Source of the DNA: Gemmatimonadota bacterium
GTDB taxonomy: Bacteria; Gemmatimonadota; Gemmatimonadetes; Gemmatimonadales; Gemmatimonadaceae
Length of the DNA: 64,000 nt
NCBI GenBank assembly: GCA_040388625.1
Contig: JAZKBK010000004.1
Location: 1 to 64,000, forward strand
Direction of reading: 5' to 3'
Shown: piece by piece, positions 30,324 through 31,882 of the stretch
Numbering within the stretch: position 1 is the first letter of the stretch
Layout: each line of letters begins with the position of its first letter
Made by a program: the position numbers and the translations under genes
Notes under the pieces: model-generated
What the model was told of the DNA's origin: nothing
The model's database searches: none
What the model saw: the letters and a program-made list of their open reading frames with translations, nothing else

Positions 30324-30534
30324 TGGTCCTCCGTGGGGTGATCCGGCTCAATTGACGGTGGCCAAGCACGTCCCGAGCCAGAAGGCAGGAGGGGTGCCTC
30401 GCGATCGAATAATTGGCACTTTTCCACACAGAACCCTTGCTTTGAAACACGCAAAACACTAGGTTTCCACATACCGAACAATCACCGAAAATTGCACCGT
30501 AAGTAGTGAACTACCAACGACTTGGCACGTGCCA
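30324..30534. promoter_or_regulatory. Divergent regulatory region between helical orphan and Rad52-like unit
   Basis: This 211-bp gap is AT-richer than its flanks. It holds a possible rightward promoter (TTGCTT at about 30437, 17-nt spacer, TAGGTT), an inverted repeat GTAGT-GA-ACTAC (30503-30514) and a TTGGCAC half-site (30413-30419) repeated in the palindrome at the downstream gene start. No small gene is apparent. Confidence 0.4.
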
Positions 30535-30535
30535 A
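30522..30535. promoter_or_regulatory. 14-bp perfect palindrome over the start of the orphan gene (candidate operator)
   Basis: TTGGCACGTGCCAA is a perfect dyad that ends on the A of the ATG at 30535. It occupies the place where a Shine-Dalgarno would be expected. The same 7-bp arm occurs as a single half-site about 110 bp upstream. A repressor site controlling the Rad52-like unit is an inference. Confidence 0.45.
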
Positions 30536-30861
30536 TGAAACAGGTCAAAGGCCGCGCCGGGGCTCGGAAAACGCGAAAGGTCCAGATTCCGCAGGTCCCG
30601 TCCACCTACGACGTGGAGCCGCTCGATCCGTGGCTTCAATGTGGGCCCGACACGACGGTGACAGAGTTGTGGAAGGTGTGGGAGCAGAGGGAGAAAGAAA
30701 GGACGCTGCACCTGGTGTACTTCGACCGGTACGGTTGGTATTGCGAACACGGACGTAGCTGCAAGGCGGTTGCGGAAGTACGGAGGATTGTTCGGACAAT
30801 GAGCGCGAATGCGCCTAGACCCAGGAGCTCTGGCAAGACCAGGGCGAGGAAACGGAAATGA
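30535..30861 (+). CDS. Hypothetical basic protein (108 aa) encoded with the Rad52-like gene
   Basis: Very basic tails (MKQVKGRAGARKTRKVQ at the start, GKTRARKRK at the end) flank a compact core: PSTYDVEPLDPWLQCGPDTTVTELWKVWEQREKERTLHLVYFDRYGWYCEHGRSCKAVAEVRRIVRT. The core has three cysteines and a CEHGRSC motif that could be part of a metal site, and several Trp/Tyr residues. I do not recognise a family. ATG 30535 is chosen over GTG 30529. Its stop overlaps the next gene's start as ATGA, so the two proteins are made together; nucleic-acid binding is a plausible inference from charge and context. Confidence 0.7.
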   Translation: MKQVKGRAGARKTRKVQIPQVPSTYDVEPLDPWLQCGPDTTVTELWKVWEQREKERTLHLVYFDRYGWYCEHGRSCKAVAEVRRIVRTMSANAPRPRSSGKTRARKRK

Positions 30862-31691
30862 TTGCGAGACAGGAGACATTCAATTCGAAGGACGCTGTCT
30901 GGTCAGCGCTGGCGGCCCCGGTGCCTGCGGGAACGATCTCGTGGCGCCAGGACGGCAAGCCGGTAGCGAGGGACGGGCGGTACTTCGCGCGCTTCGTGTG
31001 TTATATCGAAGCGAACACGGTGCGGGAGCGCCTCGACACAGTGGTCCCGGGTGAGTGGGACCTGACTCTCGAGATGCTGCCGCAGATCCACGGCGCCGAG
31101 GTCGATTCGGATTCGGTCTGCGCGTTCAAGGCGCGGCTTCAGGTACTCGGCGTGATCCGTGAGGACGTCGGGACCGGACGCGACTACAAGCAGGCGTCGA
31201 CCGATGCGTTCAAGCGCGCAGCGGTTCGGTTCGGAATTGGAAACGAGCTGTACTCGTACGAGCAGAACTGGGTCGAGGTTGATGGCGACGGCAAGTACGC
31301 CAAGCCAGTCGAAGATCCGGCGAACGCATACGAGCGCAGACACGGGAACGGCGCTGGAAAGCTGAGCCGTTCCGCGGTTGCGACCGACGACGTGAGTGCG
31401 ATGAAGGAAGCGAACACCCTGACGGACGTCGACGCAGTGAGCTGCCCCAAGTGCGGCGGGCGCATGTGGGACAACCGCCTGACCAAGCGGAATCCCAAGG
31501 CGCCCGACTACAAGTGCCGGGATAGAAACTGCGACGGAGTCGTGTGGCCGGTAAAGACCAACGGATCGCACGCGGAGCCTGATGGATCTGACTCCGCGGA
31601 AGAGTCGACCGCCGAAGTCGAGACGCCCAAGGCACCGGCGCGGAAGTCGCGCGCGGCGAAGCTGGCGCTGACGGACGAGATTCCGTTCTAA
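30858..31691 (+). CDS. Rad52/DdrA-like single-strand annealing protein with zinc ribbon and SSB-like C-terminal tip
   Basis: The 277-residue protein starts with a Rad52-type domain (residues 1-140): VWSALAAPVPAGTISWR, RYFARFVCYIEANTVRERLDTVVPGEWDL, then CAFKARLQVLGVIREDVGTG and YKQASTDAFKRAAVRFGIGNELYSY, the pattern shared by Deinococcus DdrA and phage Rad52-like recombinases. A linker leads to a zinc ribbon with Cys196, Cys199, Cys220 and Cys225. An acidic, disordered tail ends LALTDEIPF, close to the DDDIPF tip of bacterial SSB. The family anneals or protects single-stranded DNA. It is coupled to the basic orphan upstream and closed by a strong terminator. Confidence 0.82.
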   Translation: MIARQETFNSKDAVWSALAAPVPAGTISWRQDGKPVARDGRYFARFVCYIEANTVRERLDTVVPGEWDLTLEMLPQIHGAEVDSDSVCAFKARLQVLGVIREDVGTGRDYKQASTDAFKRAAVRFGIGNELYSYEQNWVEVDGDGKYAKPVEDPANAYERRHGNGAGKLSRSAVATDDVSAMKEANTLTDVDAVSCPKCGGRMWDNRLTKRNPKAPDYKCRDRNCDGVVWPVKTNGSHAEPDGSDSAEESTAEVETPKAPARKSRAAKLALTDEIPF

Positions 31692-31712
31692 CGCGGAAGT
31701 CAATCGCATGCG

Positions 31713-31757
31713 CACAAAGAGGGGAAGCGAATCACGGATTCGCTTCCCCTCTTTGTG
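31713..31757. terminator. Strong bidirectional terminator after the Rad52-like gene
   Basis: A perfect 21-bp inverted repeat (arms 31713-31733 and 31737-31757) with a 3-nt ACG loop lies 22 nt after the Rad52-like stop. The arms contain CTCTTTGTG on the plus-strand 3' side and the same on the minus strand, so it can serve both the rightward unit and tRNA-Leu. Confidence 0.85.
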
Positions 31758-31797
31758 TTCAGAATGTACGGGTAGTGCGGTGGTCGTTGCATCATAG

Positions 31798-31882
31798 TGC
31801 TCGGAGCCGGACTCGAACCGGCATGGAATTATGTTCCAAGGGATTTTAAGTCCCTCGCGTCTACCCATTTCGCCATCCGAGC
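31798..31882 (-). tRNA. tRNA-Leu (anticodon UAA)
   Basis: The minus strand gives an 85-nt class II tRNA with acceptor GCTCGGA/TCCGAGC, D arm TGGCGAAATGGGTAGACGC, anticodon stem AGGGA/TCCCT around CTTAAAA (anticodon TAA), a long variable arm (TTGGAACATAATTCCATG) and T arm GCCGGTTCGAGTCCGGC. CCA is not encoded. Confidence 0.96.

Follow-up and report, generated by a model that had tools for sequence, protein, structure and literature searches.

A predicted SOS-controlled operon for a Rad52-like annealing protein with an SSB-like tip in Gemmatimonadaceae

Introduction

Most of what is known of single-strand annealing proteins (SSAPs) comes from phages and from recombineering. What is the role of a Rad52-like protein with an SSB-like C-terminus, and of the small gene coupled to it, on the chromosome of a member of Gemmatimonadaceae, a family of soil bacteria? 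Here we describe this gene pair, called ORP and RAD, in a 64-kb stretch of DNA (the window) that comprises the start of contig 4 in a genome with 99% completeness. Our data indicate that the pair is probably a single-strand annealing operon that is fixed on the chromosome and induced by DNA damage.

Results

Both genes are on the plus strand, between a minus-strand housekeeping block and the gene for tRNA-Leu(UAA) (31797..31882, minus strand), a conserved neighbour that marks the site and keeps its position in relatives. The upstream gene, ORP (30535..30861, plus strand), encodes 108 aa with K/R-rich ends and a conserved H-G-W-Y-C-x-H-G-x-x-C core; an alternative GTG start lies in frame at 30529. 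RAD (30858..31691, plus strand), a single-copy gene in this genome, encodes a Rad52-superfamily protein of 277 aa. The ORP stop and the RAD start are joined by an ATGA overlap (30858-30861), and ORP residues 69-76 read YCEHGRSC; thus the preliminary description of this DNA was correct in reporting a two-gene unit with a coupled 108-residue partner and a CEHGRSC motif. The probable terminator between RAD and tRNA-Leu is a 22-bp hairpin, T-rich on its 3' side (31712..31758, no strand assigned) and folded at -41.5 kcal/mol.

The annealing domain of RAD (residues 8-165; 30879..31352, plus strand) is identified by several matches. Residues 16-140 are matched by Pfam Rad52_Rad22 (PF04098) with 43.8 bits (curated cut-off 20.3), and the protein is also matched by PHROG 1097, an Erf-like ssDNA annealing protein (E 4.5e-16). 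In the AlphaFold2 model, built from 27 homologs, the confidence of this domain is mostly 70-93, and disorder is predicted past residue 228. The top fold match of the model in PDB is yeast Mgm101 (E 1.6e-4, prob 1.00), followed by human RAD52 (E 6e-3); sequence identity to both is low (15-23%), and a sequence search of PDB with RAD gave no match. By profile and by predicted fold, RAD is assigned to the Rad52/Rad22 annealing superfamily, in agreement with the Rad52-like N domain proposed earlier. The C4 zinc ribbon proposed at the same time (residues 196-231; 31443..31550, plus strand) is likewise sustained, as none of its four cysteines (C196, C199, C220, and C225) varies among the 27 aligned sequences. 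Comparison with the sister species, represented in public data by a Gemmatimonadetes bacterium (locus L102), gave dN/dS values of 0.02 (annealing domain), 0.07 (RAD as a whole), and 0.44 (ORP), indicating that both genes are under purifying selection.

RAD ends with TDEIPF (residues 272-277; 31671..31688, plus strand), which conforms to the acidic D-x-[IL]-P-F tip of SSB; the SSB of the same genome, encoded elsewhere, ends with DEDDDLPF. A C-terminal [DE]x[ILVM]PF is present in 21 of the 27 RAD homologs versus one of 565 unrelated proteins, and this sole exception is encoded next to a Rad52-like gene, in what is probably a prophage region. Judged by these counts, the tip of RAD is no chance feature. 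At that, the tip is absent from five cellular homologs, three of which are mutual close relatives, and thus it is not essential everywhere. The preliminary description spoke of an acidic tail ending in DEIPF: the SSB-like ending is there, but the last 20 residues in the window species have a net charge of +3, with an acidic stretch located further upstream. Therefore the term acidic tail better fits the relatives, most of which do have such tails. The suggestion that RAD stands in for SSB is not supported, since a profile search found no match to the SSB domain (OB-fold, PF00436) in RAD and the genome encodes a normal SSB; the lack of a domain match led us to reject RAD as an SSB. RAD as a replacement for RecO was rejected as well, because nearly all relatives, RAD carriers included, have RecO.

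ORP has no match in Pfam or NCBIfam, and its model, with a core pLDDT of about 90 (AlphaFold2), has no significant fold match in PDB. Nevertheless it is not the orphan it was taken for, as it belongs to a family that, within the phylum, is found only in Gemmatimonadaceae. Y69, H72, and C76 are invariant in the family alignment (A3), and C70 is conserved in >90% of sequences. ORP represents a previously undescribed family with no known relatives; no member was found in viral contigs. The co-occurrence of ORP with a Rad52-like gene, on which the earlier proposal depended, is supported: in genome contigs, ORP is directly upstream of RAD in 26/26 RAD loci with upstream sequence. Three genomes (L081-L083) retain ORP after clean loss of RAD, and the converse was not seen; hence the two are not strictly interdependent.

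A sister subfamily of ORP is encoded elsewhere on the chromosome. Its members start with Q-[LIFT]-[DE]-[LFI]-[FW] (QLDLF, QIDLF, QFDLF, and similar), which we take to resemble a sliding-clamp-binding motif of the Q-L-[DS]-L-F type. This motif is absent from the window ORP, which has QIPQV at the corresponding place. In one genus, the sister-subfamily gene is located beside a different, plain Rad52_Rad22 gene in reversed gene order (L079, L080). In addition, small ORFs of this subfamily with an N-terminal QLDLF-like motif occur near the middle of loci L084-L096, several of them beside acetyl-CoA synthetase-like or CutC genes; no LexA boxes were found at these loci.

The strongest functional clue, missed by the preliminary description, is the LexA-type promoter of the pair. 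Relatives share, upstream of ORP, the sequence TTGACA-17 bp-TAGATT (or TACAAT) followed by ACCGAACA-N4-CCGAA, so that the box directly follows -35 and -10 elements spaced by 17 bp. The window has a weaker copy of this promoter, read from the sequence and not listed by the consensus promoter scanner: a putative sigma-70 promoter with TTGCTT, 17 bp, and TAGGTT (30437..30465, plus strand), whose elements and spacing are kept in relatives. Just 3' of its -10 element is the LexA-type (SOS) operator ACCGAACAATCACCGAA (30473..30489, plus strand). A matrix built solely from ORP promoters scored above threshold (99% of shuffles) upstream of lexA in 27/30 relatives and of recA in 22/30, versus 0/30 and 2/30 for coding controls. 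With a slightly relaxed pattern and explicit strands, sites were found at <=200 bp from lexA in 27/30 relatives and from recA in 24/30, the relaxed pattern having been chosen after the recA variants were seen. In 581,640 bp of loci, this pattern gave 17 matches versus 0.3 in shuffles. Of the 17, 15 fall at ORP promoters, and the other two lie a short distance upstream of plain Rad52_Rad22 genes. As the motif was defined on ORP promoters, the independent evidence for it is its presence at lexA, at recA, and at the plain Rad52 genes. In the genome under study, the motif is present upstream of lexA, recA, and ORP-RAD, with 12 matches at <=1 mismatch versus two for the reversed pattern.

Since the matrix derived from ORP promoters also finds the motif at lexA and recA across the family, this box is almost certainly the local LexA box, an assignment that rests on motif sharing, and the ORP-RAD unit is therefore predicted to be SOS-induced. 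The LexA box of alphaproteobacteria is likewise a direct repeat, GTTC-N7-GTTC (PMC3323433). A search of a literature library found no paper on a LexA box in Gemmatimonadaceae, and the box predicted here for the family is a testable product of the analysis.

Boxes of this type were also observed at other loci. A second, plain Rad52_Rad22 gene occupies another conserved site (L080:9564-10208, L100:8037-8693, L079:8951-9604), with a LexA-type box about 100 bp upstream in L080 and L100. In the genome under study, such boxes lie between an HD-domain-like gene and a phage-type annealing-family-like gene (L208:1501-1517), upstream of gyrB (L215:1501-1517), and upstream of a deacetylase-like gene (L214:1501-1517), all these genes being named by eye. 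Stand-alone chromosomal proteins that carry the RAD-type ribbon twice and, mostly, a DDDDLPF-type tip (L201:6867-7397, minus strand; L097, L098, and L130-L141) have LexA-type boxes nearby at three loci, L131, L140, and L201.

The promoter bears on whether the two genes act together. ORP and RAD could be independent SOS genes on one transcript, with ORP having its own role, such as one in checkpoint control or at the sliding clamp, and not acting on RAD. The persistence of both ORP and its LexA box in the three genomes that lost RAD is consistent with this, as is the QLDLF-like motif of the sister subfamily, most members of which have no Rad52 neighbours. However, the absence of any RAD locus with upstream sequence but without ORP, and the reversed pairing with a different Rad52_Rad22 gene in another genus, argue against it. 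We regard independence as possible but doubtful.

The ORP-RAD pair is located at one syntenic site beside tRNA-Leu in many genera (in a set of 99 relatives), where RAD retains about 60% identity among housekeeping neighbours, and the RAD tree is broadly similar to that of the neighbouring aspartokinase. No phage genes are found near the pair in the window. This pattern indicates that the pair is vertically inherited and chromosomally fixed. In several genera, the space separating RAD from tRNA-Leu contains differing inserted genes (L062, L063, L064, L070, L071, and L073), which suggests an insertion hot spot.

On the other hand, RAD has phage connections. A search of viral contigs with its most conserved stretches confirmed no homolog; a query with the ribbon found contig L143, in which the gene for a close, ribbon-bearing RAD homolog adjoins a replication-initiation gene. 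Moreover, the C4 ribbon and a DDDIPF-like tip are also carried by ERF proteins of viral contigs, by a prophage RecT (G019), and, in the sister species (G002), by a P-loop protein of the Sak4-like type. The fusion of an annealing domain with ribbon and tip, previously supposed to be non-standard in bacteria, is therefore not unique to the window, and phage ancestry of RAD is likely. In the literature library searched, no paper was found that describes an annealing protein bearing an SSB-like tip or a C4 ribbon of the RAD type. We also note that the sister-species Sak4-like protein with this ribbon (L200:5961-7025, minus strand) has a GEIPF tip and is probably encoded by a prophage.

In principle, RAD could be a prophage remnant, a phage recombinase stranded beside a tRNA gene with no host role. 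The homolog in L143, several RAD-like genes in a probable prophage region in G018, and the adjoining tRNA gene would all fit such an origin. However, the single site shared by many genera, the identity retained there, the housekeeping surroundings, the tree that broadly tracks a neighbouring gene, the strong purifying selection, and the conserved host LexA box speak against it. Thus, whereas phage ancestry is likely, absence of a host function is not, and we consider the remnant explanation quite improbable.

The recurring cassette also bears on the earlier suggestion that RAD competes with SSB. A decoy of this kind would use its tip to draw partners away from SSB, steering repair off RecA-dependent recombination; the SSB-like tip of RAD and the presence of a normal SSB in the same cell agree with it. 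However, outside the tip, the tail of the window RAD has a net positive charge, it has fewer acidic residues than the SSB tail, and phage ERF, RecT, and Sak4-like proteins carry the same ribbon and tip, for which recruitment is the simpler reading. Competition is therefore not favoured, and we hold it to be unlikely. Finally, the pair could be an anti-phage defence unit that targets phage recombination, a process in which Rad52-like proteins have a central part; the patchy distribution of the family would also fit. Yet the pair has no PADLOC match, occupies a fixed housekeeping site and not a defence island, and has a predicted SOS promoter, making a defence role very improbable.

Discussion

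On the best reading of these observations, RAD is an annealing protein that is induced by DNA damage and resembles DdrA in its role; its tip would recruit partners of SSB, for instance RecO. The family and fold of RAD, its ribbon, the conservation of its tip, the pairing of the genes, their vertical inheritance, and the operator shared with lexA and recA come from the computational analysis described above; the following scheme goes beyond them. DNA damage would activate RecA, leading to LexA cleavage and derepression of the ORP-RAD promoter, and RAD would be translated in coupling with ORP. The Rad52 domain may oligomerise on ssDNA and anneal or protect ends, with additional nucleic-acid contact provided by the zinc ribbon. 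The flexible tail would expose the D-E-I-P-F tip and recruit SSB-docking proteins to the annealing site; RecO is present and is a candidate partner. ORP may be an accessory protein induced along with RAD, perhaps serving as an adapter to the replisome or to DNA.

A broader and more tentative scenario is that a mobile C-terminal cassette, consisting of the C4 ribbon and the SSB-like tip, has been joined to annealing proteins of four or more different families, in phages as well as in bacteria. In Gemmatimonadaceae, a Rad52 protein with this cassette could then have become fixed as an SOS function, its partner coming from a new family of small proteins that would connect annealing with the replisome via an ancestral clamp-binding motif. 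A bacterial SSAP that is vertically inherited, apparently under SOS control, and equipped with an SSB-like tip would illustrate host adoption of phage annealing enzymes, and the tip offers a direct way to test recruitment.

Among known systems, the closest in role is the damage-induced DdrA of Deinococcus, also a bacterial chromosomal protein with a Rad52_Rad22 domain tied to DNA damage; the Pfam domain is present in both Deinococcota control genomes. According to the published report, DdrA is a Rad52 homologue implicated in damage recovery (PMC515370), and an SOS-independent radiation/desiccation response is also used in Deinococcus (PMC8072749). In contrast to DdrA, the RAD unit has a LexA-type box, a C4 ribbon, an SSB-like tip, and a coupled partner gene. 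The phage ERF, RecT, and Sak4-like proteins share the ribbon, with up to 78% identity between viral ERF ribbons and that of RAD, and most have a DDDIPF-type C-terminus; they differ in having another annealing domain and in being phage-encoded, and the ORP family was found on the cellular side only in our comparison with viral contigs. Mgm101 and human RAD52 resemble RAD in the predicted annealing fold, but they are eukaryotic, and the ribbon and tip of RAD are outside the fold match. Bacterial SSB shares with RAD the acidic residues followed by [IL]PF, whereas in RAD, which has no SSB domain, the tip is borne by the annealing protein itself. For phage 80alpha, a contact of the annealing protein Sak with the acidic tail of SSB has been discussed (PMC11846896); the tip-bearing RAD would have the opposite polarity.
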